A DNA stretch of 63,327 nt, from contig DYJE01000031.1 in assembly GCA_020723285.1 (NCBI GenBank), positions 1-63,327 on the forward strand, in the 5' to 3' direction. The notes under the pieces were generated by a model. That model saw only the letters and a program-made list of their open reading frames with translations, searched no databases and had not been told where the DNA came from. Shown here one piece after another: positions 39,582 to 55,016 of this stretch. This DNA comes from Desulforapulum autotrophicum. GTDB lineage: Bacteria > Desulfobacterota > Desulfobacteria > Desulfobacterales > Desulfolunaceae. The translations under genes were made by a program, and so were the position numbers. Within the stretch, counting starts at the first letter, position 1, and each line of letters opens with the position of its first letter.

Positions 39582-41399
39582 TTAAAAAAGTTCGATGTTA
39601 TCCCCGAATTCACGGGATTCGATGTGTGTATCTTCCTTCGTTTGAACATCGGATTCGGCATTATGGCGTCCCGCCGACGCGATGGTCCGGTGGATCCGCC
39701 GTTCTTTTTCCATGGTGTAGCGGTTGAACAGAGGGTTATCCAGCATCTTCTCCTGAACGGTTCTGTCGGCATAGGGTGAAAGGACGTTCACCAGATCTTT
39801 AAGGCTGTCCATCTGCATTTTGAGATTCCCGGCCATGGCGGGGATGATCTGAAGCTGGATTTTCACCTTCTGATGGACAGAATTCATGGTTTCCATGTTC
39901 CGATTCAGGTCCCCGGCCTGGTTTTTCATCCGGTCGACCATGCTCACAATGGATGAAAGGGTGCTGTCCAGGATATGTTCCTGTTCCAGGCCGCCGCCCT
40001 CTTCCCCGTCATTCCGGGACATGGCGTTCACCACCTTCTGGATGATAACGGCCACATCTTTGACAAACAGCTCGGCCATATCCGCCAGCCGCTTCATTTC
40101 ACCGGCCAGAACGGCCAGAGTCCGGCCTTCTTCCCCCAGGTGACTTGCGGCGATGATGGCGTTGATGCCTTTGACATGGGCGTCCATGCTGATGTCGTGG
40201 ATTTTCCCCGTCAGCTCGGTGAGAACCGATGTGGTGGACAGTGCGGAGCCGTAGATGTCGTTCATGCGGTCCAAAAGTTGCGTGCCCCTGTTTCTCAACG
40301 AGCCAAGGCCCTGAATGGAATCAAGGAGATGCCGGCCCACATCGCTGCCCTGACTGCCGGAGTCCTGATCCGCATTCCCGGTCAGGCTGATCACCTGCTC
40401 GGCGATGGTCGCTATACCGTGCCCCAGCGTATCGAAAGCCGCGGAAACCTGGATGTGCACTTCGGCGATTTCATCGGTCATGTGATGCAATTGGTCGTAA
40501 AGGATCGTTGACATGGCATGGGCCGTTGCCAGGCGTTCCTTGCCCGGCAAGGCATTTTCGAACAGGTCCGCGATATCCGAAAAACCCGTGACCACATGCT
40601 CCAGCCTCTGCCTCATGGCATCGTGAAACTGAAGGGAAACAACGATTTTTTCCACATGCGACGCAAGATTTTTTCCCATGTTCGCGGCGTTCACCGCGGT
40701 CCGTTCCGCAGAATCCAGCCAGCTGTCCGTAATGTCCACAGCTTTTTTGACGGCGGAATCCGCCACCCCGGACACTTTTCCAAGTTCGTCCACGCCGTCC
40801 ATGATTCCCGCAAGCAGCCCTGAAAACCGTTTTTTTGAATCGTCCACCGTGGCGTTGACGTTTTTTGAAAGATCGACGATATTTTCTGACAATTGCTTGA
40901 TTTCTTTCGCGATGATCGAAAAATTTTCACTGACGAAGCTGGACCGCGATGTTTCGATAAATATGTTGAGGGCCACAGCCCTCAGATATCGCGCCAGCCG
41001 CTCGATGTCTTCGTTCTTTCCCTGGAGTTCGTCCAGAAATCGCAAAACGCTTTTGACCGATTCGAACTGAATCCGGATGTTTTCACTGTTATGCCGGAAT
41101 CGTGAAAGGCTGTTGTCGATCAGGTCTTTCATGGACCTCAGGGCTTTTTTTTCTTCAGAACCCTCGGCCATGGACACAATGATCAGGGCTTTCGATTCAA
41201 TGGTTTTTCCTGCGGTGCTGCCCTCCATCAGCGACGCCCCCAGGGCCATGAATTCTTTTTCCGACAGAGAACCGATGCTTTTCAGGCCGCTTCGGATTTT
41301 CTTCACCCTGTCAACAATATCCGCTTGCAATGTGCGATTGTCCGTGGAATGGTCTTTACTGATCATGGATGTCCACCATTGAATGAAGTGTTGAAGCAT
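39582..41399 (-). CDS. soluble MCP-like coiled-coil protein
   Basis: A 605-residue protein with no membrane helix, made almost entirely of amphipathic helix with receptor-like segments (LNIFIETSRSSFVSENFSII, KEIKQLSENIVDLSKNVNAT; later HVKGINAIIAASHLGEEGRT and VLAGEMKRLADMAELFVKDV). The last resembles the receptor hairpin-tip region. The segment VSLQFHDAMRQRLEHVVTGF is also found in CheZ- and MCP-like helices. It heads the che run and may be a cytosolic receptor or phosphatase-like component; the class is uncertain. AAGGAG precedes the ATG. Confidence 0.75.
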   Translation of the reverse strand: MLQHFIQWWTSMISKDHSTDNRTLQADIVDRVKKIRSGLKSIGSLSEKEFMALGASLMEGSTAGKTIESKALIIVSMAEGSEEKKALRSMKDLIDNSLSRFRHNSENIRIQFESVKSVLRFLDELQGKNEDIERLARYLRAVALNIFIETSRSSFVSENFSIIAKEIKQLSENIVDLSKNVNATVDDSKKRFSGLLAGIMDGVDELGKVSGVADSAVKKAVDITDSWLDSAERTAVNAANMGKNLASHVEKIVVSLQFHDAMRQRLEHVVTGFSDIADLFENALPGKERLATAHAMSTILYDQLHHMTDEIAEVHIQVSAAFDTLGHGIATIAEQVISLTGNADQDSGSQGSDVGRHLLDSIQGLGSLRNRGTQLLDRMNDIYGSALSTTSVLTELTGKIHDISMDAHVKGINAIIAASHLGEEGRTLAVLAGEMKRLADMAELFVKDVAVIIQKVVNAMSRNDGEEGGGLEQEHILDSTLSSIVSMVDRMKNQAGDLNRNMETMNSVHQKVKIQLQIIPAMAGNLKMQMDSLKDLVNVLSPYADRTVQEKMLDNPLFNRYTMEKERRIHRTIASAGRHNAESDVQTKEDTHIESREFGDNIELF

Positions 41400-41935
41400 G
41401 TCCGGCTCCTTATAAGAAGCGGAAGGTCCATAAAAAATAATTCATGTTGTCATTGGGCCATCAGGGCCGGAGTGTTGGTGACGGTATCCGGCTAATCGCA
41501 TGTGAAAGCCATAAAATGTTTCAAAAATGAACAAGCAACCGGTGAAAACGGTTCTTTAATTGGATTGTGTCATTAGATCGATTGAAGTGAGCTCAGCATT
41601 TTCCGTAATATTAACAAAGCAGATCAATGAAGGCAAACTTAATTTAATGCCACTTCCTTTGCAGGACAGGCTTTCGCCCACCGTTATGTGCCTTGCCTGA
41701 GCCCGGTGACAGGTCTTGTTGCGTGCATATCCACCGAAAATAGCGCCACATCAGCGACAGGACACGTATCGCCATTTTTCATCAAAAACTTGAGAAAAAA
41801 ATCATGCGAAAACGGAATCCCGTTGAACTTCGAACGAGTGATGTAAAATAAGTTTCCGGCTCAATCAATTTTAAGCTTGAATATTTTTAATAAATAATCA
41901 TAAAGAAGACAAAAAAACTGAATAAAGGACAGACG
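41400..41935. other. 536-bp intergenic region between divergent operons
   Basis: No gene is supported. It must hold the promoter of the che run (leftward) and of the lipoprotein pair (rightward). The right 100 bp are AT-rich; TTGAAC at 41823 and TAAAAT at about 41844, 15 bp apart, are a weak sigma-70 candidate. A short hairpin AACGG-AATC-CCGTT lies at 41811-41824. No clear sigma-28 or sigma-54 site was found. Confidence 0.6.
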
Positions 41936-43411
41936 ATGAAACGACAAATTACCTTTTTTATTACAGCCATTTCCATTTTCATGGGTCTCACGGGTTGCTC
42001 AGCCAATCACAAAAAGACAACGGTTCAGGCCGACAATTCCATCACGGGATACCCGGACATCATTCCCCTGACCGAGGGCAATCTGAGGGGGCATAAGATT
42101 CTCTATGACGAAGGCTGGTTCGTGGTGAGCAGTTCCAGAAAAGCCCTGGCCTACGCCCATGAAAAGGCCTTCAGGCCCTCGGGAGAGAACATGCGGCGCA
42201 TTGCGGCCCAGGTGGCCGAGAGGTCGAAAGACCTGGGAGAGCAGATGGACGATAACGCCAAAGATTCCTACCGCCTTGCGAAAAACACCCTCAAAATCGG
42301 ATCGATTTTCACCGTGTTTGGCGCTTTTGGCACTGCCCATCTTGTAGGCAAGGAACTGGACCAGGCGAAAGAATCGTTTTCCGACGCCTGCACGGCGTTC
42401 GTGGAAGGCCACATCAGCCTGGTGAAACGGACGCCCGAAGACCTTCGCAGGCTGCGCTCCGTTCCCGGCCGCTATTTTGAAAATCTCAGGGACGATTTTT
42501 CCAACATCAACGACCTGTACACTTCGGTCAACAGCACCGTTTCAGAAAAAATCGGGCTATCCTGGGAAAAGTCCTTCGACGAGGCGGCGGCCTCGTTCAA
42601 AGCCGAGTATGAACAGTCCGGAAAGCGGTCAAACAGTCTCATGGCCATGGGCGATATCCTCACCGGCTATTTGAAGGCGTTTTACCAGGGACTGGCGAGG
42701 CCATCGGCCAAGTCCATCGTTCAGGGCAGCGGGAAAGGGGCCAACAGTCTGTTGTTTCTTCCCGGAGCCGCAGTTACGGTGGTGACGGGGCGCACCCTTG
42801 AAGCCACCGGTCTGGCGTTGTTTTACAGCGCCGAAACCGGATACCATGTCATCTCACCCACGCTGGAATCGGGATTCCTCACCGGAGTGTCCATGCTTTC
42901 CATGGCCACGGTTCCCGCCACTGTCGCAGCCGGAGCGGGGATCTGCGCCGTGAATCAGGTGGCGTTCACGGCGGCGGCCCCGGTGGCCGGAGCGGGCAGC
43001 GCCGTGGTCCGTACCGCCATGGACACCGGAAAATATGTGGCTCTGGTGGGTTACGATCTCACATCCCACAGCACCGGCGTGGCGATCAATTACGCCAAAT
43101 CCGGGGTGGTTCTCGGGTACAACGCCCTGACAGCCATACCTGTTCACCTGATCCTCGGAACCATGGATACGGCGGTGTTTCTCGCCTACGACGGTCCGCG
43201 GCTGGTGATCGCCGCAGCCAGGGGCGAGCTGAAACACTCCAAAACCGGGAAACGCTATTCTGTCGGCAATCTCCCCACCGGAGCCGTGGTGGATCTGGAA
43301 AAACTGAAAAATGAGGACGGGGTGTCGGTGGACATCGTCACCGACGATCCTTCCGTCATCAGCAATGTCTTGAAAAACATGCCGAAAGACATGGGAGGCG
43401 AACATGAATAA
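41936..43411 (+). CDS. lipoprotein with Gly/Ala-rich hydrophobic core, paralogue A
   Basis: A 491-residue lipoprotein of no family I know. The lipobox is LTGC with acylated Cys21 and Ser at +2 (outer-membrane retention under the E. coli rule). Residues 50-240 are charged amphipathic helix (SGENMRRIAAQVAERSKDLG). Residues 260-420 are rich in Gly, Ala and Val with several hydrophobic stretches (LLFLPGAAVTVVTGRTLEAT, AAPVAGAGSAVVRTAMDTGK). The tail has YDGPRLVIAAARGELKHSKT and LPTGAVVDLEKLKN. Its paralogue follows with an 8-bp overlap. It might insert into or bridge membranes, which is inference from composition. Confidence 0.85.
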   Translation: MKRQITFFITAISIFMGLTGCSANHKKTTVQADNSITGYPDIIPLTEGNLRGHKILYDEGWFVVSSSRKALAYAHEKAFRPSGENMRRIAAQVAERSKDLGEQMDDNAKDSYRLAKNTLKIGSIFTVFGAFGTAHLVGKELDQAKESFSDACTAFVEGHISLVKRTPEDLRRLRSVPGRYFENLRDDFSNINDLYTSVNSTVSEKIGLSWEKSFDEAAASFKAEYEQSGKRSNSLMAMGDILTGYLKAFYQGLARPSAKSIVQGSGKGANSLLFLPGAAVTVVTGRTLEATGLALFYSAETGYHVISPTLESGFLTGVSMLSMATVPATVAAGAGICAVNQVAFTAAAPVAGAGSAVVRTAMDTGKYVALVGYDLTSHSTGVAINYAKSGVVLGYNALTAIPVHLILGTMDTAVFLAYDGPRLVIAAARGELKHSKTGKRYSVGNLPTGAVVDLEKLKNEDGVSVDIVTDDPSVISNVLKNMPKDMGGEHE

Positions 43412-45257
43412 AAAACACGCGATCCGGCTGTTTTCGATCTTTATCCTCTGTATGATCCTGGCCTGCTCGGCACGGACCAACGACAGCCTGAAGAACACAA
43501 AAAAACTTGTGAAACAGGGCCACAGCGATCTGTACCACAACGGGGCTTTCAAAGTTCCCAACACCTCCATCTGTCTTATCGAGCCCGGCCCGTCGGCCTG
43601 GGAGTTCGTCAAGGAACTGTCGGGACTCAGGGCCAAGGAGTCCTTGTTCACGGCCCTTAAAAAAGCATCCGAAAGCGTGGTCATCGTCTCCAAAGGCACG
43701 GAGCTGACGTTCAAGCTGGCCAAAGCCGAACGTGAGGCGGGCAACGACGCGGCGGATTACATCCGAAGCCGGACCCGTCCCGGAACGATCCAGGTCATGG
43801 ATTCTTCCATGGCCAAAGGGAAAAAAATCATCGGAGATTCCTGGGTGCTGGCAAAAAATCTGGCCAGCGGGGTCGTGGACTCAAGCCCGGACAGCTCCCT
43901 GCTTTATCGAAAAGGCGACGCATTGGGGTCCGCCATAGACGCGAAAGGCACGGAAAAAGGTAAAAAAATGATCGCCGGCTCAAAGGACGCGGCGGGTGAT
44001 TTTTATCAGGACAGAAAAGAAGGTGCCCGTGAATCGTTCGACCATGCCCGGAAAAGCTTTGTCTACGGTTACAGCTATCTTCCGCACAGACTGGGGGAGA
44101 ACCTGGACGCCGCCGGAGAGAACCTCAGCGACGCCAACATCATGGGCGTCATCGCCAAAGCGGATGACACACGGGAAAGCCTGTCCGACCCCACGGTCCG
44201 TCTCATGGGCTCCACCGTCGAGAATTACGTCGGTGACGTCAAAGACTCGTTCAGCCGGGCCGGAAAGGAATGGGACCAGTGCTACACCACGGGAATTCCC
44301 CTGGCCACATTGAAATCCCTGCGGTGGGTTCTGAAAGGCATTCTCTGGGACGCCACCCTTGAACCGCTGTCGAAAATCACCGTGGGCGGCCTGGGATATC
44401 TGGCCGTGAACTGCGTGGCGTTTCCCGTGATCATCATTGAGGAGGAAGGACGAGCCCTGGCCCAGGTGGCTGTGGATGTGACATGGAACGCGTCCAAATC
44501 CGTGTACCAGATTACCGCGCCGTCAGCGGTGGCGGGACTTGCGGGGCTGTACGGCATGCTGGAGTATGGAACCGGTCCCCTGGTGGCCGGCTCCATGGCC
44601 GCCGGAGGCGCGATCACCGGAGCAGGGCAGATCGGGGCCGCCAAAGTGGGCGGTGTGGTGGTAAAAAGCGCGGGGCTGGCCGCAGGCACGGCAAACCACT
44701 ACATCGGCGTTCCCCTGATGGCGGCGGGTGTCGCCGTGACCGGCGGAACCGTGGGGGCGGCGGTCATGGGAGGCGGTACGGTGGGCGCAGGCTCTGTTCT
44801 GATTGCCGGTGAAACGGCGGCGGCCGGTTCGCAACTGTTCGGGAACCTTATCGCCGGAACCACGGCGGTGACCGGCACAGCCGTTTCGGCGGCAGGCGGC
44901 GCGTCATACGGCGTGTACCAGATCTCCAAGGCTGTGGCGGTTCCGGCGGGATACGAAATGGGAGCGGGAGTGGTGCTCAGCTACGAAACCCTGGCCCATT
45001 TGAGTGCCCACACCATTCTCGCCGCCGCAGACTGCTCCTACATGGTTCTTTCCCTGGAAGGCCCTCGCTGGGTGCTGTATGCCGTCAAAGACACCCTTGG
45101 CATGGGCGGAGATCTTGTTCCCGGCACGGTCCTCAATCTGAACGGTATGAAAAATGCCGGTGAAGAGATCTACAATATCCCCATGAGCGACGATGAAATG
45201 AAAAAAGTGGTCTCTGAAACATCAAGGAATCTGCCTGTTCGTGAACAAAAACCATGA
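43404..45257 (+). CDS. lipoprotein with Gly/Ala-rich hydrophobic core, paralogue B
   Basis: A 617-residue relative of the preceding protein. Lipobox ILAC with Cys21, Ser at +2. An N-terminal helical charged half (about 25-300) precedes a Gly/Ala/Val core at 320-540 with long uncharged runs (AAGGAITGAGQIGAAKVGGV, VAVTGGTVGAAVMGGGTVGA). The tail LEGPRWVLYAVKDTLGMGGD, GTVLNLNGMKN mirrors paralogue A (GPR-V-A, then V-L--LKN). ATG overlaps the upstream gene by 8 bp, so the two products are likely made together in fixed ratio. The core has glycine-zipper character. Confidence 0.85.
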   Translation: MNKKHAIRLFSIFILCMILACSARTNDSLKNTKKLVKQGHSDLYHNGAFKVPNTSICLIEPGPSAWEFVKELSGLRAKESLFTALKKASESVVIVSKGTELTFKLAKAEREAGNDAADYIRSRTRPGTIQVMDSSMAKGKKIIGDSWVLAKNLASGVVDSSPDSSLLYRKGDALGSAIDAKGTEKGKKMIAGSKDAAGDFYQDRKEGARESFDHARKSFVYGYSYLPHRLGENLDAAGENLSDANIMGVIAKADDTRESLSDPTVRLMGSTVENYVGDVKDSFSRAGKEWDQCYTTGIPLATLKSLRWVLKGILWDATLEPLSKITVGGLGYLAVNCVAFPVIIIEEEGRALAQVAVDVTWNASKSVYQITAPSAVAGLAGLYGMLEYGTGPLVAGSMAAGGAITGAGQIGAAKVGGVVVKSAGLAAGTANHYIGVPLMAAGVAVTGGTVGAAVMGGGTVGAGSVLIAGETAAAGSQLFGNLIAGTTAVTGTAVSAAGGASYGVYQISKAVAVPAGYEMGAGVVLSYETLAHLSAHTILAAADCSYMVLSLEGPRWVLYAVKDTLGMGGDLVPGTVLNLNGMKNAGEEIYNIPMSDDEMKKVVSETSRNLPVREQKP

Positions 45258-45270
45258 TTATCAACAATCG

Positions 45271-45288
45271 AGGCCTCTTCGGAGGCCT
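45271..45288 (+). terminator. hairpin after the lipoprotein pair
   Basis: AGGCCTC (45271-45277) pairs perfectly with GAGGCCT (45282-45288) around a TTCG tetraloop, 14 bp after the stop of paralogue B. The T tract is weak, so termination may be partial. Confidence 0.55.
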
Positions 45289-45312
45289 TGAACCTTCCTT
45301 GCGACAATGCTC

Positions 45313-45343
45313 TTGACATTTTGATTTTTTTGGACTTTATAGG
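45313..45343 (+). promoter_or_regulatory. candidate sigma-70 promoter for the GLUG gene
   Basis: A perfect -35 TTGACA at 45313 is followed after 17-19 bases by TTTATAGG, an imperfect -10. It lies after the terminator hairpin and about 175 bp before the GLUG gene. Confidence 0.35.
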
Positions 45344-45518
45344 CAACGTCATTTTCAATTAAACGTTCGAGCATGATATATCGCGTTACTTATGAATAGA
45401 TGGTAAGGCGTCAGAAATACCTTTTGACGGATTTATTTATCATTATTTCAGGTCAATATCATACTCTGCAGTTCATGATATATCCAAAAAATCATATGAC
45501 AAGGATGTTTTCGCACCC

Positions 45519-48476
45519 ATGACAACCACAATCCCCCGTTCCCGACTCATCGCATTGGCATTCCTTTCGCTGGCCGCCCTTCTTCCGGTTTTTCCGGTCT
45601 TCGCCGCCGACTATCCCATCTATACCCTCCAGGACCTCCAGGCCATGAAAGACCACCTCACGGACCGCTGCATCCTGATGAACGACATCGATGCCACAGA
45701 GACCCGGAACTGGAACGAGGGCCGGGGATTTGAGCCGGTGGGAGCCGCAGGACAGCCCGCAGACCCGGCGAACCAGTATTTCAGGGGAATTTTCGAAGGA
45801 AACGGTCATACCATCCGCAATCTGTATATCAATCGGCCTGATCAGAGCTGTGTTGGATTATTCAGCGGCATCACCGTCACAGACACCGCCGTCACCGTTC
45901 AGAATGTGATTATTGAAAACGCCGAAATCACGGGGGCTTTCGGTACGGGTATCCTGGCCGGGCGGATCATGTCCTTCAGTTCCACGGAGCTTGCAACGGT
46001 TACCGCCGCCCGGATCAGCGTATCAGGGAAGGTTCATACAGCCACGAATATTGCCGGAGGTGTGGTGGGCGAATTGAGCGGCAACCGGATCGTGATAACG
46101 GATTGCATCGGAACATGCGACATATCGGGCTCAAAATATCTGGGTTCCATAATCGGTGGAAGCAATGGATCTGTTTATCTGATTCGATGCACCGGGTATG
46201 GCACCGTTTCAGGAACAGATGAGGGATGTGGTGGCGTGGCCGGTTACATCTCCGGTGGATCGCTCAGGGATTGCAGATCCCATGTCAAAACCGCCGGAAC
46301 CTCCGATGTTGGCGGCCTTGTGGGGACATTCATCGGAACCAGCCTCATCGAGCGATGCTGCAACAACGGTCTGGTTTCCGGAACAGGTTCAAACATCGGC
46401 GGCCTTGTCGGGCGTCTCAATACAGGCGCAACAGTCCGTAACTCATACAGCGTGGCATCGGTTTCAGGGGCCGGTAACGTGGGCGGTTTCGCAGGGCAGA
46501 ACAACGGCGGAACCATTCAGTTCAGTTACTGCCAGGGTGTGGTCAGCGGATCGGGCGGAAATTTCGTGGGCCTTTTCAACAATCCTCAGAACACGCCATC
46601 CCTTCTTTTGTACAACTACTGGAACGTCACGGTTTCCGGTTCCACCACGGGCCATGTGGACAATCAGATGGAAGGTCTCACCGAGATTCAGATGGTTTCG
46701 CCGGCAAGTTTCGAAACCTGGGATTTCAACGCGGTCTGGGCCATGGAGCTGAGCGAGGGACACAAGACAGCGCCGTTTTTCCGTTTCAAAGGGGGAAACG
46801 GAACGGAGGCTGACCCCTTCCGTATCGGCGATGTTTACGGACTTCAGGGCATGGGGCTGTCCGAAAGTCTGCGGGAGAGCTATTTCATTCAGACGGCGAA
46901 CGTGGATGCGGTCATCACGAAAATCTGGAACACCGGCGCGGGTTTCATTCCCGTGGGGCTGACCGAACCGTTCAACGGCCGGTTCAATGGAAACGGATTC
47001 GGAATCCGCAATCTCTACATCAACATCCCGATGATCGATGAACCCGTAGGCCTGTTCGGGACCACGGGCAAAACGTCCGTCATCGAAAACGCCAGTCTTG
47101 AAAACGTGAAAGTCGTGGGCGGGGCCAAATCCGGCGGGATCGCAGGGCTGGCCAAGGGACTCATCACCCGCTGCTCGGTCACCGGAAGAATCTACGGCGG
47201 AGGTTTTGCCCTGACCGGAGCGTTCATCCTTATCGTCGGAGAACAGATGTTCGACTTCAACGCCTACGCCGGTGGGCTTGCAGGCTTCCTTGACGGCGGC
47301 GAAGTGCGCGATTGCACAGCCGATGTGGAAGTCAAGGGGCTCACCACGGCGGGAGGTCTTCTGGGCCGGGCCCTCAATGCCACGGTCGTGAACAGCCGGA
47401 GCCGGGGTTCGGTGTACGGCAACACCCTTGTGGGCGGTTTTGCCGGGATGTTCATGGACTGCCGGGTGGAACGCTGTGAAAGCCGTGCGGCGGTCCATGG
47501 CAATACCGCGGCGGGAGGGTTTGCGGGATATCTTGAAGGCGGTGAAACACTCCGCTCGGTCAGTACCGGGGCCGTGTCCGGTTACAGCATGGTCGGCGGC
47601 TTCTCAGGGCTTCTTCAGGGGCCTGCGGACCAGTGCTGGTGCTCCGGAAGCGTTCAGGGCAGCTGCGACACCGGCGGCTTTGCCGGAATCGTTCAGGCTC
47701 TTTCCAGAGACTGCATGGCCACGGGATCGGTTTCAGGAGCCGCAAACACCGGCGGTTTTGCAGGGTATATGATGCCGGGCGGATCCCTTGTCCGCTGTTA
47801 CAGCAAAGGCAAGGTGGCCGGCACAACGGAATGCGGCGGACTGGTGGGTTTCAACTCCGTGGAAGAACAGGATTACGTGTCCTGCTTCTGGGACATGACA
47901 GGCTCGGGATGGGCTCTGTCCAAAGCGGGCGCAGGGCTTAACCGCCAGAACATGGTGCAAAAGTCCAGTTACCCGGATTGGGATTTCGTTCAGGTCTGGA
48001 TCATGAACGACGGGGTGCTTCCGCCATTTCCCCTCTGGGACACCCAGGGCGCGGACCTTTACGTCACGATATCGCCGGATCAGAGCTCTTTATCAGCCCA
48101 TTCACCCTTTTCCTACACCGTCACCGTCGTCAATCAGGGCCCCTATGACGCCCTGTCCATCATTCTTTCCACGGAATCAGGTCCGGGACTTGAACATACC
48201 CGGTGTTCGTTTGACCAGGGCCAGACCTGGCTTCCCTGGGAGAGCCGTCTGGAGCTTGGGGATCTGGCTGTGGGTGAAACCCTGGTCATCCGGGTCGAAG
48301 GCCGGGCCGTGTCAAGCGATGACGGCGAAACGTCTTTGACCCTCAGCGCAGATTTCGACGGCCATGAATTCGATCAGGCGGACAATACCGCCCGGCAGGA
48401 CTGGACCCTGGGAACAACGGCCCAGGTAACGGCCGGAGACGGAAGCGGATGTTTTATATCAAGTATGGCCCTGTAA
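45519..48476 (+). CDS. large secreted GLUG-repeat surface protein
   Basis: A 985-residue exported protein with a signal peptide (1-30). It has two tandem modules (about 31-420 and 428-850). Each opens with a lead-in of the form D-L-Q-x-M ... WN-x-G-x-GF-x-PVG ... GNG-x-x-IRNLYI and continues with GLUG-type repeats (GGLVGTF, GGLVGRL, GGFAGQN, GGFAGMF, GGFAGYL), a beta-solenoid pattern; both end in a WDF-x-x-VW block. A DUF11-like beta sandwich follows (TISPDQSSLSAHSPFSYTVT). The C-terminus GDGSGCFISSMAL resembles CFI-box C-terminal sorting tails. Likely a surface adhesin-like protein. Confidence 0.88.
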   Translation: MTTTIPRSRLIALAFLSLAALLPVFPVFAADYPIYTLQDLQAMKDHLTDRCILMNDIDATETRNWNEGRGFEPVGAAGQPADPANQYFRGIFEGNGHTIRNLYINRPDQSCVGLFSGITVTDTAVTVQNVIIENAEITGAFGTGILAGRIMSFSSTELATVTAARISVSGKVHTATNIAGGVVGELSGNRIVITDCIGTCDISGSKYLGSIIGGSNGSVYLIRCTGYGTVSGTDEGCGGVAGYISGGSLRDCRSHVKTAGTSDVGGLVGTFIGTSLIERCCNNGLVSGTGSNIGGLVGRLNTGATVRNSYSVASVSGAGNVGGFAGQNNGGTIQFSYCQGVVSGSGGNFVGLFNNPQNTPSLLLYNYWNVTVSGSTTGHVDNQMEGLTEIQMVSPASFETWDFNAVWAMELSEGHKTAPFFRFKGGNGTEADPFRIGDVYGLQGMGLSESLRESYFIQTANVDAVITKIWNTGAGFIPVGLTEPFNGRFNGNGFGIRNLYINIPMIDEPVGLFGTTGKTSVIENASLENVKVVGGAKSGGIAGLAKGLITRCSVTGRIYGGGFALTGAFILIVGEQMFDFNAYAGGLAGFLDGGEVRDCTADVEVKGLTTAGGLLGRALNATVVNSRSRGSVYGNTLVGGFAGMFMDCRVERCESRAAVHGNTAAGGFAGYLEGGETLRSVSTGAVSGYSMVGGFSGLLQGPADQCWCSGSVQGSCDTGGFAGIVQALSRDCMATGSVSGAANTGGFAGYMMPGGSLVRCYSKGKVAGTTECGGLVGFNSVEEQDYVSCFWDMTGSGWALSKAGAGLNRQNMVQKSSYPDWDFVQVWIMNDGVLPPFPLWDTQGADLYVTISPDQSSLSAHSPFSYTVTVVNQGPYDALSIILSTESGPGLEHTRCSFDQGQTWLPWESRLELGDLAVGETLVIRVEGRAVSSDDGETSLTLSADFDGHEFDQADNTARQDWTLGTTAQVTAGDGSGCFISSMAL

Positions 48477-48509
48477 CCCGTCAACAGCTCAGCAAGGAGA
48501 TCCACCCTC

Positions 48510-50051
48510 ATGGCCTGTATGGATAAAATCGTCATTTATGTCATCGCTCTGATGTTCGTCATTCTTGTGTTTTCCGGCGTGACCCGCGCAGAAACGGTCA
48601 CCGTGCACCGGGCCCAGGCCATTTTGAAAAAAATGAATTACTACCCCGACGCCGTGACCGGTTCCATGAACCCCGCCACCATCAAAGCCATTGTCACGTT
48701 TCAGACGGATTACAATCTGAAACCCAACGGTCGGCTTGACGACCCCACATGCCGGGCCCTGGTGGCCGAAGACCTGAAAATCACCACTGCAGCAGATCAG
48801 GCCAGGGAACTTAAAACAGTGACCGGTGCCCAGACAAGCTTGAAATCGCTGTTTTACTATTTCGGCCCTGTCAGCGGAAAGCGCGGCGATATCCCGAAAT
48901 CGTCCCTTTCGGATTTTCAGAAAGACAACAACATCCCGGTGAGCGGCAATCTCGATGAAAAAACCGTCAGCTTTCTCGAAAGCGGCAAGGCCCAGCCCAG
49001 AAAACCCGTGGACATCAGCGCCCATCCGGTCAAGCCCGAGCCCACACCGCCTGAAACCGCCGAAAAAAAAGAAACGGCGGAAAACGGCAAACCAAAGACA
49101 GCGGAAGCCAAACCGGCGGTCACGCCTGAAAATCCTGAGATAAAAAAGCCGGCCAACGTTCAGCCGCAGTGGAATGTCAGCATGGGTCAGATGAGCTACA
49201 AACCCAGGTCAGGCTATGACTCAACGTCCTACGAAGCCCTGAACGAAACACTCAATCCCGGTCAGGCGGTGATCTACGACGACGAATCCTTTGCCATGAT
49301 CCGGCTGGCCCTGGATTACGCACCGTTTAAGGCGTCCCTCTCCACCAGCCGCCTCGGCGGCGGAGAAAACGCCGCCGACACCCTGGATTTTTCCTGGTAT
49401 GTCAGCCTGAAGAAAAAACCGTGTATCCTTTCATTTCAGGTGGATTCCGTGGAATCCGACGCTCTGGTCGACGGGCAGGTCAAAAGCATCGCAACCCGAT
49501 CGGTTTCGGGGGAATGGCTGTACCGCTACCGGCCCTGGATGGCTCTGGGCGTGGGCGTCAGTCACGGTTCATGGCCCACCCTGGTGTCCTGCAAAAGCAG
49601 CGCGAGCCGGGACCGGGACATCCGCTTTGACGAGGATTTCACCCTGTCCTCGCTCAATGCCGTGATCCGCTTCGACAGCATGGCCTCTGACCGGCGGCCG
49701 CTGTTTAAGATCGAGCATCTTTACCCTTACGTCGCCGGTTCCTTCACCGCCGGACTGGGGTTCGGAACCGTGTCCGGCAGCGTGATGGACCGCATGAGCT
49801 CGGATCTCGACCACGCCTTTTCCCCTGACATCCCCACCGTCCATGTGAAATTCGCCCCCGAGGCCGGTCTCACCTATCAGATCCACCGTCCCGGTTTTGA
49901 CCTGGCCCTGACATTGGGCTACGCGCTGACGTACCATGTCCCCAACCTGGCCCTCCACCGAATCCCCGGATTTGAAACGGACGATGAGGTGGAATTCTAC
50001 CGGCGGAATGTCAGCCACGGACCGGTATTGGGCGGAAATGTGTCGTTTTGA
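48510..50051 (+). CDS. peptidoglycan-binding protein with outer-membrane barrel-like C-terminus
   Basis: A 513-residue exported protein. A signal peptide ends near GVTRAE (residue 29). Two PG_binding_1-like domains follow: about 30-88 (AQAILKKMNYYPDAVTGSMN, FQTDYNLKPNGRLDDPTCRA) and 98-155 (LKSLFYYFGPVSGKRGDIPK, FQKDNNIPVSGNLDEKT). A Pro/Lys/Glu-rich linker spans about 160-215. The rest is alternating beta sequence ending GPVLGGNVSF, a C-terminal Phe as in BAM-assembled barrels. It may tie the outer membrane to the cell wall. It starts 33 bp after the GLUG gene and is probably co-transcribed, perhaps exporting or anchoring that protein (inference). Confidence 0.82.
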   Translation: MACMDKIVIYVIALMFVILVFSGVTRAETVTVHRAQAILKKMNYYPDAVTGSMNPATIKAIVTFQTDYNLKPNGRLDDPTCRALVAEDLKITTAADQARELKTVTGAQTSLKSLFYYFGPVSGKRGDIPKSSLSDFQKDNNIPVSGNLDEKTVSFLESGKAQPRKPVDISAHPVKPEPTPPETAEKKETAENGKPKTAEAKPAVTPENPEIKKPANVQPQWNVSMGQMSYKPRSGYDSTSYEALNETLNPGQAVIYDDESFAMIRLALDYAPFKASLSTSRLGGGENAADTLDFSWYVSLKKKPCILSFQVDSVESDALVDGQVKSIATRSVSGEWLYRYRPWMALGVGVSHGSWPTLVSCKSSASRDRDIRFDEDFTLSSLNAVIRFDSMASDRRPLFKIEHLYPYVAGSFTAGLGFGTVSGSVMDRMSSDLDHAFSPDIPTVHVKFAPEAGLTYQIHRPGFDLALTLGYALTYHVPNLALHRIPGFETDDEVEFYRRNVSHGPVLGGNVSF

Positions 50052-50176
50052 CGGGTGAATGCGATAGAGTGGGTGTCATCGATCTTTTCCGGCTCATGCC
50101 TCCTTCGGCCCCCATTTGTCAACCCAACTGTTTGATAAAGTCAGCCATAACATGTTTTAGGCATCCCATTTTCAGC

Positions 50177-52708
50177 TTACCGCGAAAGCCAGCGCCTGAT
50201 CCGCGCCGCGATGGACTGCGGATCAGGCATCAGGGCGTTTTCCAGGTTTTTGGCGTAAGGGACCGGGCATTCCGGGGCGGCCAGACGCAATGGCGGGCGT
50301 TTCAGGGTGTGAAAGCCTGCCAGACAGACACGGCTGATGACCTCGGCACCGATTCCGCCGGTGGCTGTTCCTTCTTCCAGAGTGACAAGATGGCGCGTTC
50401 CGGCAACCGATGCCAGGATGGTTTCACTGTCCATGGGGTATAAGGTGGCGAGATCCACGATTTCCAGCTCTATACCCTGCTGGGCGAGGATGTCTGCCGC
50501 GTCCAGGGCCGCAGACACACCCAAAAGATGGGTGACCAGGGTGGCATCCGCTCCTGTGCGCACGATCCGGGCTTTTCCAAGGGGAAGTGTGTAGTCGCCT
50601 CTGGGAACCCGTCCGGTGTTGGCGTAAAGAAGTTTGTGCTCGAAGAACAGCACCGGGTTGTCCGAACGGATGGCGGATTTGAGGAGGCCTTTGGCGGTGT
50701 AAGGGTCCGAGGGAGCCACGACGATCAGGCCGGGAATGCCGAAGAAAAAGCGCTCCATGCTCTGGGAGTGCTGGGCCGCCATACCGATGCCGCTGCCCAC
50801 AGGCGTCCGGACGGTGAGGGGCATGCTCACCTGTCCGCCGGTCATATACCTGAGCTTGGCGGCCTGGTTCATGATGGGGTCCATGCAGCAGGTTAAAAAA
50901 TCGCCGAAAAGGATTTCACACACCGGACGCAGACCGGTCATGGCCGCACCCACGGCTCCGCCCACAATGGCGTTTTCACTGATGGGGGTGTCGATGATCC
51001 GCGATTCGCCCAGTTTCGCCACAAGACCTTCGGTGACACTGAAGTAACCGCCCAGGCGGACGTCCTCACCCCAGAGGAACACCCGGCTGTCCCTCTTCAT
51101 TTCCTCTTCCAGGGCCTGATTGATGGCCTGGGAATAGGACAGCTCCACCCCTTCCCCGACCTGACCGATTCTCCCTTCGAACAGTCCGGCGGAATCGGGG
51201 TGATAAATCCGGGTGAACAGATCCTCTTCCGCAGGGTCTTTGGCCTTCCTTGCGAAATCCGCCGCCTCAAGGACCGCAAGGGTCACAGCCTCACGGAGGC
51301 ACCGGATCTCCTCTTCGGTGCACAGGTTGTCTGAGAGCATTTCCTTTTCAAGACGCGCGATGGGGTCCTTTTCCATGAACGACCGTTTTTCATCTTCGGT
51401 CCTGTACAGTTCCGGCTCCCCTTCCATGTGGCCGTGCCACCTGTAGGTTTTGAGTTCCACAGCCCGGGGTTTTCCGTCTTTCCGCATGGCCCGGACCAGA
51501 TCCCCCACCCGGTGGAATACCGTCATGGGGTCGTTGCCGTCCAACTGGATGGATTCGATATTGTAGGCCGCCATGCGTTTCCGGATATCCGTTTCCGCCG
51601 AATGGCGCTCGATGGACGTGAACTCGCCGTAAAGGTTGTTTTCGATGACCACCAGAAGGGGAAGCCCAAACACCCCGGCCATGTTCAGGGCTTCATGAAA
51701 CATGCCCTGGTTCACCGATCCGTCTCCGGCAAACACCACGGACACGTCGTCCCGCCCCTGGTATTTGATGGTCTGGGCCGCGCCCAGGGCAAGCAGATAT
51801 CCCGCCCCCACAATGCCGTTGGCCCCTAAGATTCCCAAAGTTCCGTCGGTGACGTGCATGGACCCGCCCTTCCCTTCGCAGAGGCCGTCAGCTTTGCCGT
51901 AGAGTTCGGCCATCATTTTTTTGAGATCGGCTCCTTTGGCGATGATGTGCCCATGCCCCCTGTGGGTGGTGTTGATGTAATCCGTGTTCCTGAGGTTCAT
52001 GCACACCCCGGCGGCCACCGCTTCCTGGCCGATGGACAGATGAATGGCTTCAGAGGGAATCTCCCCGTTCCTGAACCCTTCGGACAGATGCTGCTCGAAC
52101 GCCCTCACCGTCACCATGGTCCTGAAGATGTCCTTTACGGTGATCATGGTATCCCCGGAGTTTTTCGGGGCCATGTTCCGAAGGGGCTCCCTGATGTCCA
52201 GGGGAAAGCGGGGCAGCGCGTCCATGTCCAGGCTTTTCCGGCTCATGAGATCCGAAAGGGCGAACCAGCGCCTCTTTTTCTTTCCGGATCGTTTCCGGAC
52301 CAGAAGGTCGGACCGGCCCATGTCAGTCAGCACGGTCCGGTATATGGCAAAGGCCGGTTTAAGGGCCGGAAGAAGCTTCAGTGCTTTCTGAACCGAGCCT
52401 TTGGCCACGATTTTCCGGCTGGCCAGAGCCAGGGGCACGTTCAGATCCTCCATCCAGAACCCGTGGCCGGTGTCCGAGGCGAGAATCATTTCCACATCGG
52501 CTTTCGGCGGCGCTGCCGGGTCCCACAACACCTCTTTGCGGCCTTCACCCACGGCGATGAACATCCGGGTGTCCATGTCGGTGAACCGGAACTCCACCAC
52601 CAGGGACAGATCCGAAAGACGGTCCGCGATCTCGGGTGTTTTGAAAATGGTCTCCCACAACCGGGAAAGAATATCCTGAAGCTCTTTTTTGCTTTGATAA
52701 ACTGCCAT
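50177..52708 (-). CDS. thiamine-diphosphate dehydrogenase E1 alpha-beta fusion with SCP2-like domain
   Basis: An 843-residue three-part fusion. Residues 1-130 resemble an SCP2 sterol-carrier domain (LSLVVEFRFTDMDTRMFIAV, LALASRKIVAKGSVQKALKL). About 190-500 is E1 alpha with HLSIGQEAVAAG, THRGHGHIIAKG and the ThDP motif GDGSVNQGMFHEAL...ENN. About 525-843 is E1 beta (RVFLWGEDVRLGGYFSVTEG, DTPISENAIVGGAVGAAMTG). It should decarboxylate a 2-oxoacid or acetoin-like substrate. No E2 or E3 gene is nearby. It lies 27 bp after the SDR gene. The SCP2-like part suggests a hydrophobic or CoA-linked substrate (inference). Confidence 0.9.
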   Translation of the reverse strand: MAVYQSKKELQDILSRLWETIFKTPEIADRLSDLSLVVEFRFTDMDTRMFIAVGEGRKEVLWDPAAPPKADVEMILASDTGHGFWMEDLNVPLALASRKIVAKGSVQKALKLLPALKPAFAIYRTVLTDMGRSDLLVRKRSGKKKRRWFALSDLMSRKSLDMDALPRFPLDIREPLRNMAPKNSGDTMITVKDIFRTMVTVRAFEQHLSEGFRNGEIPSEAIHLSIGQEAVAAGVCMNLRNTDYINTTHRGHGHIIAKGADLKKMMAELYGKADGLCEGKGGSMHVTDGTLGILGANGIVGAGYLLALGAAQTIKYQGRDDVSVVFAGDGSVNQGMFHEALNMAGVFGLPLLVVIENNLYGEFTSIERHSAETDIRKRMAAYNIESIQLDGNDPMTVFHRVGDLVRAMRKDGKPRAVELKTYRWHGHMEGEPELYRTEDEKRSFMEKDPIARLEKEMLSDNLCTEEEIRCLREAVTLAVLEAADFARKAKDPAEEDLFTRIYHPDSAGLFEGRIGQVGEGVELSYSQAINQALEEEMKRDSRVFLWGEDVRLGGYFSVTEGLVAKLGESRIIDTPISENAIVGGAVGAAMTGLRPVCEILFGDFLTCCMDPIMNQAAKLRYMTGGQVSMPLTVRTPVGSGIGMAAQHSQSMERFFFGIPGLIVVAPSDPYTAKGLLKSAIRSDNPVLFFEHKLLYANTGRVPRGDYTLPLGKARIVRTGADATLVTHLLGVSAALDAADILAQQGIELEIVDLATLYPMDSETILASVAGTRHLVTLEEGTATGGIGAEVISRVCLAGFHTLKRPPLRLAAPECPVPYAKNLENALMPDPQSIAARIRRWLSR

Positions 52709-53693: not shown

Positions 53694-54320
53694 ATGACAC
53701 TTTCGCCCAAAACACGCGTTCCAAAGCAGAAACGCAGCATCGACAAAAAAAACCGCATCATGGACGCGGCCATGGCCCTGTTCGCCCAAAAAGGCATCCA
53801 CCGGACCAATTCCAAGGAAATCGCTGCGGAAGCCGGGGTGGCCATCGGCAGCTTCTACTCCTATTTCCCGGACAAGCACAAACTCCTCACCGAGGTTCTC
53901 GATTCCTATCTGTGCGATCACTTCGACCGGATCTGGCATGAAAACCCGGCACCGGACAGCACGGCCTACGACCGCATCATCCGCCACTACATGGAAAACC
54001 TCCTCAGGGCCTACGACACGGCACCGGATTTCCACAGAGAAACCCACGTCCTCCGGTATTCGGACCCGGACGTGAAAGCCCTCTATGACCGTGAAACGGA
54101 AAAGGAGCTGAAACAGATCGCCACGGTTCTCCACCAGTTCAAGGACCATATGACGGTGACGGACATGGAGGCCGCCTCCGTGGTGATCCACAGCGCCGCC
54201 GAAAACCTGGCGCACAAGATCAAGTTCATGGGTTCCATGGATGAACACCGTCTTGTGTCTGAATTCACGGCGATGATTTACAGGTATCTTTCAAAAGATG
54301 GGAATGCTGGGGAAGGTTAG
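53694..54320 (+). CDS. TetR-family regulator (1)
   Basis: A 208-residue repressor. The helix-turn-helix is IMDAAMALFAQKGIHRTNSK plus IAAEAGVAIGSFYSYFPDKH. The C-terminal ligand domain is of the FadR/AcrR-like length. It is divergent from SDR-E1 across the two TGAAC palindromes and should control them and itself. No clear ribosome binding site precedes the ATG. It converges with a paralogous TetR gene, overlapping it by 4 bp. Confidence 0.93.
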   Translation: MTLSPKTRVPKQKRSIDKKNRIMDAAMALFAQKGIHRTNSKEIAAEAGVAIGSFYSYFPDKHKLLTEVLDSYLCDHFDRIWHENPAPDSTAYDRIIRHYMENLLRAYDTAPDFHRETHVLRYSDPDVKALYDRETEKELKQIATVLHQFKDHMTVTDMEAASVVIHSAAENLAHKIKFMGSMDEHRLVSEFTAMIYRYLSKDGNAGEG

Positions 54321-54937
54321 TTTTTCAGCTTCGTGTTGATCACAAAAAAATCATAAATAATATGGGCCAGTTCGTCGATGAGACGGGATTCCTCGATTTC
54401 CGTGCCGATAAACTTGGAGGTGTGAGCCACCTGTTCCACGGCGTTGTGGAAAATGATGGCGGCGGCGTAGGGATCCCGAAGGTTCATCCGGTCTTCGTTG
54501 GCCTTGAAAAGCATCATGATCTGGGCCAGTTCCCGCTCCCGGCCTCTTTCGAAAATGCGGTTGATTTCAGGATCGGAATACCTTAAGGCGTGGGTCTGGC
54601 TTAAAAACGTGGGGGCGATGTCAAAGGCCTTGAACACATTGGCCAGAAGATCCCTTATATCCTGGGGACCGATCTCCTCGAAATTCGTGGTCCTTAAATC
54701 CTGCCAGATCAGGGTGTAGCTCATGGCCAGCAGATTCTCAAGAATGGCGAGGAGCAGCTGCTTTTTATCCTTGTAATACGAATAGAAACTTCCGATGGCC
54801 ACCCCGGCCCTGTCCGCGATCTCCCTGGAATTCGTCCCGTGAATGCCTTTTTCGGAAAAAAGTTCAAAAGCGGCGTCCTCGATACGTTTTTTCGTTTCCT
54901 GACTCCGCTGCTGCTTCGGAACCCTCACCTTCGCCAT
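54317..54937 (-). CDS. TetR-family regulator (2), paralogue of the preceding
   Basis: A 206-residue repressor similar throughout to the gene opposite: IEDAAFELFSEKGIHGTNSR and IADRAGVAIGSFYSYYKDKK in the DNA-binding part, and SQTHALRYSDPEINRIF matching ETHVLRYSDPDVKALY in the other. I start at the ATG 54937 with GGAG upstream. The two genes converge tail to tail and overlap by 4 bp, so they arose by an inverted duplication or were brought together. Its target is unknown. Confidence 0.92.
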   Translation of the reverse strand: MAKVRVPKQQRSQETKKRIEDAAFELFSEKGIHGTNSREIADRAGVAIGSFYSYYKDKKQLLLAILENLLAMSYTLIWQDLRTTNFEEIGPQDIRDLLANVFKAFDIAPTFLSQTHALRYSDPEINRIFERGRERELAQIMMLFKANEDRMNLRDPYAAAIIFHNAVEQVAHTSKFIGTEIEESRLIDELAHIIYDFFVINTKLKN

Positions 54938-55016
54938 CGGCAATCTTCTCCAGTTTCAATGTGGTATTCTTAGTGATTTTCCTGTCTTTTAAGGACTTTT
55001 CCCCATACAAAAAACC

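Follow-up and report, generated by a model that had tools for sequence, protein, structure and literature searches.

Several described bacterial systems share individual traits with the four-gene locus considered here. CdzC and CdzD of Caulobacter form a two-protein bacteriocin whose partners are co-encoded, carry glycine-zipper-type segments and are associated with the cell surface (PMC5380434). In Salmonella, a lipoprotein assists the display of the surface protein SadA (PMC3953254). OmpM outer-membrane tethers join a cell-wall-binding part to an outer-membrane barrel (PMC10628300), and in the MYXO-CTERM/myxosortase system many exported proteins per genome carry a C-terminal tag with an invariant cysteine (PMC11980579). 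The locus lies at positions 41936-50051 of a 63,327-nucleotide stretch of Desulforapulum autotrophicum DNA (contig DYJE01000031.1 of assembly GCA_020723285.1, forward strand; the whole stretch is referred to as the window) and encodes four exported proteins, P1 to P4.

A previous interpretation based on the letters of the window (the sequence-only reading) had grouped these genes into a single envelope module for surface display or secretion, in which the barrel would export or anchor P3 and the lipoproteins would modify or bridge membranes. Our comparison of the locus with other genomes favours, at about an even chance, a different arrangement in which P1-P2 and P3-P4 are two linked units. 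The P1-P2 pair has no named family in Pfam, NCBIfam, PADLOC, PHROGs and the PDB sequences, with the literature not searched by the gene names of the pair. It is unnamed and undescribed as a family and is built from ingredients of known kinds.

Organization of the locus and its conservation in a second genus

All four genes are on the plus strand. P1 (41936-43411; 491 aa) overlaps by 8 bp with P2 (43404-45257; 617 aa), a lipoprotein and paralogue of P1. P3 (45519-48476; 985 aa) begins after a spacing of 261 bp and is separated by 33 bp from P4 (48510-50051; 513 aa). These assignments combine open reading frame (ORF) calls with the sequence layout (P1), a conserved Cys21 (P2) and Pfam matches (P3 and P4). 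They reproduce the sequence-only reading as far as the four consecutive plus-strand ORFs, the overlap and the 33-bp gap are concerned, and both neighbouring genes are, as it had also described, on the minus strand.

A genome from another genus of the same family (G297) has these four genes in unchanged order between flanking genes that differ. BLASTP identities between the two are 53% for P1, 55% for P2, 39–40% for P3 and 42–44% for P4. In G297, P1 and P2 overlap by 11 bp and the listed start of P3 lies 252 bp past P2. Retention of all four proteins in a second genus exceeds chance. Across eight genomes of the family, P2 and full-length P4 share the same pattern of presence and absence (two present, six absent).

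The P1-P2 pair recurs in distant lineages with no P3 or P4 found beside it

P1 is located directly upstream of P2 and on the same strand in 16 of 16 species-level occurrences from at least five phyla. These comprise 12 loci from a pattern scan of GTDB, G297, the window and plasmids of two Leptospira species; two of the GTDB loci, L027 and L028, have ORFs identical to those of G061 and G124 and each was counted once; G061 belongs to the phylum of the window. The GTDB scan covered 84,980 species genomes, and the pair was adjacent in 12/12 of the loci returned (L027-L038), whose hosts are assigned to Desulfuromonadales, Deltaproteobacteria, Geobacteraceae/Geobacter, Nitrospirae, Marinomonas sp. 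MED121, Bacteriovoracaceae and Campylobacterales. The two genes overlap by 1–23 nt in 13 of the 16 cases and abut across the record origin in one; the remaining two show gaps of 26 and about 340 bp with the start codons chosen. Three of 72,556 plasmid records include both P1 and P2 and all are from Leptospira: two L. biflexa strains and L. kobayashii. The L. biflexa p74 pair (L118) corresponds to LEPBI_RS18690 and LEPBI_RS18685, and it is on the L. kobayashii plasmid pE30-1 (L119/L120) that the pair spans the record origin. Since the GTDB patterns failed to return Leptospira, the pair counts are lower bounds.

Whole-genome searches gave low counts: P1 was detected in 3 of 297 genomes of the phylum, own genome included, a P2 profile in 3 of 395 and P2 itself in 2 of 58 relatives. 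Of 194 genomes around Marinomonas, a P1 profile matched one, namely that of the query. The pair is therefore rare and patchily distributed. One weak P1 candidate, G079, was discarded (E = 2.4e-4 over 66 residues of a 480-aa ORF that reads as RmuC-like, with no pair). Pattern scans of viral contigs, which did not extend to the phage collection, yielded no relative.

No relative of P3 or P4 was found in the flanking DNA examined around the 12 other pair loci, where at least 3 kb of downstream DNA was available in nine, about 1.8 kb in L034, 0.3 kb in L028 and none in L035. A whole-genome search of the 12 pair genomes outside the family for P4, not extended to P3, revealed no full-length P4 and a single PG-binding match of 60 positions. 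The four-gene module of the sequence-only reading thus holds for gene order in G297 and not for these 12 loci. That reading had taken homologues scattered without a conserved neighbourhood as evidence against a module; the four genes are adjacent in one family and the pair occurs without P3-P4 elsewhere, so that half of this expectation was borne out.

What the ORFs examined around the pair have in common between hosts is limited to general signalling and ABC-ATPase domains, a dihydrofolate-reductase-type gene that is found in both L027 and L. biflexa without adjoining the pair, and two small ORFs, in L036 and L021, that read as toxin-antitoxin-like. In both Leptospira plasmids, genes for a diguanylate cyclase and a Ser/Thr kinase come after the pair, and glucan-biosynthesis genes are located upstream on the opposite strand, with a chemotaxis-protein gene in between in L. 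kobayashii. This neighbourhood is confined to one genus and simple inheritance may explain it. Around 68% of p74 genes, a figure for the plasmid as a whole, are reported to be upregulated in the late biofilm stage of L. biflexa (PMC4863578), and p74 may carry essential genes (PMC2229662).

P1 and P2 are paralogues with a hydrophobic period near 11/3

P1 and P2 share a common layout: a signal peptide, an amphipathic helical region (about residues 65–235 in P1), a Gly/Ala-rich hydrophobic region (about 270–400) and a C-terminal domain common to both. P2 has an additional N-terminal block of near-invariant residues and varies from 595 to 799 aa, mostly due to insertions in the helical and Gly/Ala regions. 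Their paralogy is detected by BLASTP (E = 4e-10), and a P2 profile matches P1 at E values of 2e-9 to 1.2e-8 in all three genomes in which both were found.

The sequence-only reading had described two lipoproteins. This is upheld for P2, whose lipobox cysteine (Cys21) is kept in 16/16 proteins; 13 of 13 scored sequences fit a loose lipobox pattern and seven fit a strict one. It does not extend to P1 as a family trait, since a plausible lipobox, judged by eye with loose forms allowed, is present in only 6 of 16 P1 proteins (the window, L029, L034, G297 and both Leptospira) and the strict pattern in 1 of 13. In the window itself the lipoboxes are LTGC in P1, which fits the strict pattern, and ILAC in P2, which fits the loose pattern only. 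TVSC in the P1 of L027 was discarded as it sits within a hydrophobic stretch.

In each of the four P1/P2 regions the strongest hydrophobic period lies near 11/3 (means 3.65, 3.67, 3.69 and 3.70), with a peak power of 6.7–14.1 compared to shuffle maxima of about 1.8 ± 0.2. At the heptad value of 3.5 the power is small (0.6 to 2.0, versus 6.5 to 13.4 at the peak). In P2, autocorrelation is maximal at lags 11 and 22 in both regions. The hydrophobic and charged residues of the P1 and P2 helices lie on opposite faces, 166–177 degrees apart.

With the window proteins as queries, Pfam and NCBIfam returned no family at E ≤ 1 for either P1 or P2, PADLOC no match, and PHROGs only matches at E about 0.04. 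A Pfam scan of 13 members per alignment gave single-member matches only (best E 0.0084 for P1 and 0.01 for P2). When P1 and P2 profiles were searched against PDB sequences, the top matches were designed helical bundles; apolipophorin-III appeared among the weak matches of P1 (E = 0.73, not significant). In the literature searched, no paper brought hendecads, amphipathicity and the outer membrane together.

P3, P4 and a conserved element in the P2-P3 gap

P3 matches Pfam GLUG (PF07581) in five stretches (46.9 bits, cut-off 20.5, E = 2.2e-12), in agreement with the GLUG repeats noted in the sequence-only reading, and also DUF11 (E = 1e-9). P4 includes two PG_binding_1 (PF01471) stretches at about residues 30–160 (67.8 bits, cut-off 23, E = 9.1e-19), followed by a linker and a C-terminal part of about 300 residues ending in Phe, a putative outer-membrane barrel. 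The final Phe is present in both members (window and G297). In this part the hydrophobicity alternation is 1.84 compared to 1.56 ± 0.15 in shuffles, 3.8% of 500 shuffles being as high, so that of the PG-binding/beta-barrel fusion proposed earlier the PG-binding part is confirmed and the barrel stays putative, with an alternation only slightly above shuffles. P4 has no SLH match in Pfam, and neither P3 nor P4 matches POTRA, two-partner secretion (TPS) or autotransporter families in Pfam, NCBIfam or PHROGs, although a distant relative could escape such profiles.

Orthologues of P3 and P4 were found only in G297, P3 having been sought among the loci examined and not in whole genomes. Full-length P4 occurs in 2 of 96 relatives, in the own genome only among 297, and in 1 of 13 pair genomes (G297). 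Fourteen further genomes of the 297 showed partial, mostly PG-binding matches; P4 matches beyond G297 were rejected because they cover no more than the PG-binding part or the beginning of the linker.

Two features lie in the gap between P2 and P3. Neither this gap with its conserved element nor the CFI-box tail of P3 described below was part of the sequence-only reading. The first, at 45268-45291 (+), is a 10-bp hairpin with a TTCG loop, terminator-like with a weak T tract (fold of −17.4 kcal/mol for a 60-base stretch); this hairpin 3′ of P2 is not conserved in G297. The second, at 45312-45355 (+), is a promoter-like element, TTGACA-17-TTTATAGG followed by CAACGTCATTTT, with 34 of 44 positions identical to its counterpart in G297 (L026 9323-9366, minus strand); the highest count in 60 dinucleotide shuffles was 28. 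The gap of both genomes includes TTGAC-N18-TTTATAGGYAACGTCATT, and both copies carry GGYAACGTC. With up to three mismatches allowed, the window genome and G297 have a single copy of the element each, and six other family genomes have none. The best window-G297 match upstream of P1 did not rise above 15 shuffles. The term promoter rests on conservation and shape, since a sigma-70 scan showed no excess of sites (5 versus 4.1 ± 1.8 in shuffles) and did not list the P3 element. Two further copies follow the promoter-like element in the G297 gap, one of them inverted (GACGTTACC), and suggest an operator.

P3 belongs to a class of proteins with a CFI-box tail

The C-terminus of P3 (48435-48476, +), GDGSGCFISSMAL, matches the CFI-box motif NF041763 (cut-off 15.9) with 18.1 bits in a genome scan and 13.7 bits, below the cut-off, in an hmmscan of the protein. 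Its G297 orthologue ends in GDGSGCFISSLNDW (19.8 bits). We know of no enzyme or function for the CFI-box and of no description of a machinery that handles it, and no mention of the term was found in the literature searched.

NF041763 gives 16 matches at E ≤ 10 in the own genome, five of them above the cut-off. The 11 best-scoring places besides P3 include nine ORFs of 154 to 1669 aa that end 6–10 residues past the CFI cysteine (L059, L060, L061, L062, L063, L064, L065, L067 and L068). These have apparent signal peptides, as judged by reading, and no transmembrane helix past the cysteine, and four of the nine are above the cut-off. L041, L069 and L066 were rejected (respectively a 59-residue frame, a CFI that is not terminal and no called ORF ending in CFI). 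A degenerate tail pattern is found at four places in the genome, three at protein ends and one not; its reversed control is found at one. The ORFs of 11 CFI regions contain no BLASTP match to P1-P4 at E ≤ 0.01. Among 14 control genomes, 11 gave a match at E ≤ 10 and five at E ≤ 0.5, with one above the cut-off both times. Single weak CFI matches consequently mean little, and it is the recurring position at protein ends that constitutes evidence.

The cut-off was passed in 12 of 28 other genomes: 7/7 of the family, 5/9 of the order and 0/12 pair-bearing genomes outside the family, five of which have matches below it. From this distribution, in which Leptospira genomes were not included, the CFI tail class and the P1-P2 pair occur independently. 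P1-P2 as the machinery for CFI tails was rejected, since the tails pass in all six family genomes that lack a P2 match and in 0/12 pair genomes outside the family.

Genomic context

P1 is flanked by an MCP-signal protein gene (39582-41399, −) and P4 by an E1/transketolase fusion gene (50177-52708, −), both assigned from Pfam and ORF calls. The latter encodes a single chain of 843 aa in which an SCP2-like N-terminus (20.4 bits, slightly below the Pfam cut-off of 21.3) is fused to dehydrogenase E1 and transketolase-type parts. Further along, a TetR-family gene (53694-54320, +) and a convergent homologue (54317-54943, −) overlap at their ends by 4 bp and share 44% identity across 199 residues. 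The GC content is 0.57–0.58 across the P1-P4 genes and ranges from 0.49 to 0.59 within the window, with no compositional island by GC at P1-P4. Rfam gave no match at E ≤ 1 within 41400-50300.

One module or two linked units

The view that P1-P2 and P3-P4 are two linked units draws on gene order, the paralogy of P1 and P2, the P2 cysteine, the hydrophobic period, the tails, the conserved promoter-like element and the distribution of the pair. It is further supported by the P1 and P2 distances, which correlate over 13 rows (Mantel r = 0.93, reached by 0 of 2000 permutations), and by the agreement in period within P1 (3.64–3.67 in the amphipathic and 3.65–3.69 in the Gly/Ala region, both 16/16) and P2 (3.67–3.72 in the Gly/Ala region of 15/16, the remaining one 3.85, with a wider range of 3.62–3.79 in the amphipathic region). 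P1 and P2 would be exported by Sec as paralogous partners, usually encoded with overlapping ends, and P2, once lipidated, would probably be in the inner leaflet of the outer membrane. The amphipathic 11/3-period helices and the Gly/Ala-rich helices might pack mutually in a hendecad or glycine-zipper style, with the common C-terminal domains as a matching interface, to give a hetero-oligomeric helical assembly lying on or inserted into the membrane. The pair would then be an accessory envelope trait spread by horizontal transfer. P3-P4 would be a two-gene operon with its own promoter. In it, P3 would be a GLUG surface protein built of repeats, with a CFI tail recognised and processed by a genome-wide system whose genes lie at another place, while P4 would bind peptidoglycan, reside in the outer membrane and seat or accompany P3. 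Adjacency in one family suggests that the surface served by P3-P4 may also be served by the P1-P2 assembly. Since P2 and P4 are present or absent alike and the flanks changed as the four genes stayed together, the four may be functionally linked in this family.

A number of observations weigh against this view. P3-P4 is seen only beside the pair, and the split into two units depends on the other occurrences of the pair and on the conservation of a single element between two genomes. The Mantel value for P1 and P2 may reflect common species history. A plausible lipobox is lacking in 10 of 16 P1 proteins. The agreement in period is a conserved property of related sequences and not 16 independent observations. 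The autocorrelation of the P1 amphipathic region peaks at lags 15, 18 and 7 besides 11, which makes P2 the clearer case of a strict 11-residue repeat. The predicted structures of P1 and P2 are poor (mean predicted local distance difference test, pLDDT, 44.5 and 42.8). Their structural matches are generic long-helix bundles, such as Smc arms, chemoreceptors, BAR domains and toxin subunits, with top Z scores of 9.7 for P1 and 9.2 for P2; for helical models caution is advised below about 13, and no family was assigned from these matches. The barrel of P4 is putative, and the membrane location and the complex are likewise predictions.

Of the alternatives, a single four-protein surface-display or secretion unit, in which P4 would export or anchor P3 with P1-P2 as helpers by analogy with SadA in Salmonella, seems rather unlikely. 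It would account for the common order of the four genes in G297 between different flanks and for the joint occurrence of P2 and P4 in two of eight family genomes and their joint absence from six. Against it stand the lack of full-length P4 in all 12 pair genomes outside the family and of any P3/P4 relative in the DNA examined around those pairs (downstream DNA short or missing in 3/12), a separate promoter-like element for P3-P4, a P3 tail that belongs to a genome-wide class, and the lack of secretion-family matches for P3 and P4 in the three libraries searched.

Also unlikely, and a little more so, is a role for P1-P2 as an envelope-stress, mechanical or lipid-handling scaffold, in which apolipoprotein-like amphipathic helices would lie on periplasmic membrane faces. 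The opposite placement of hydrophobic and charged residues is consistent with this, as are the apolipophorin-III match and, in both Leptospira plasmids, the glucan-biosynthesis genes close to the pair; however, the match is not significant, the neighbourhood comes from one genus, and the Gly/Ala half appears buried rather than surface-lying. That P1-P2 is a two-protein antagonism system attacking neighbouring cells with glycine-zipper helices, like Cdz of Caulobacter, is very improbable: strict pairing, hydrophobic helices rich in Gly/Ala, a patchy distribution and carriage on plasmids would fit, but signal peptides and a P2 lipobox differ from type I export, no third gene common to the hosts was found beside the pair as an immunity or exporter candidate, and these long proteins are conserved lengthwise with no hypervariable toxin end.

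A further reading, less likely than not, is that P1-P2 is an undescribed, horizontally spread two-protein envelope machine: sister proteins with hendecad-type amphipathic helices and a Gly/Ala helical core, one partner lipidated, would co-assemble into an alpha-helical membrane-associated structure. Its carriers would include Desulfobacterota-type bacteria, Nitrospirota, Marinomonas, Bacteriovoracaceae, Campylobacterales and Leptospira plasmids. Coupling to a CFI-tailed surface protein and a wall-binding partner would be confined to one family. A strictly paired family with no entry in the libraries searched, present in several phyla and on plasmids, represents a concrete target. The presence of the pair on p74 of L. 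biflexa, a saprophyte that lives freely and serves as a laboratory species, makes its function directly testable, and P3 adds a further instance of a cysteine-containing class of C-terminal tails.

Comparison with known systems

Each of the systems described above resembles a part of the locus and differs in other respects. CdzC/CdzD use type I secretion and an immunity protein (PMC5380434); P1 and P2 have signal peptides, and no third gene common to their hosts was found. No family that could represent Cdz-type export or immunity is shared by pair loci of different hosts, the neighbours having been compared mutually and not with Cdz genes. The SadA system (PMC3953254) provides a likeness in the lipoprotein that would assist a surface protein, P1-P2 and P3 being the counterparts here; unlike SadA, P3 has no autotransporter match, and P1-P2 occurs without P4 in 12/12 pair genomes outside the family. 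P4 is similar to OmpM (PMC10628300) in joining a wall-binding part to a barrel, putative in P4, and differs in using PG_binding_1 with no SLH match. In MYXO-CTERM proteins (PMC11980579) the cysteine is followed by a transmembrane helix and an Arg-rich end, unlike the ten CFI tails described here, which stop 6–10 residues past the cysteine; P3, which ends seven residues past it, is not a MYXO-CTERM protein. The CFI-box motif NF041763 itself stands at the C-terminus of P3 and of nine further ORFs in this genome, five of the ten being above the cut-off in the genome scan.

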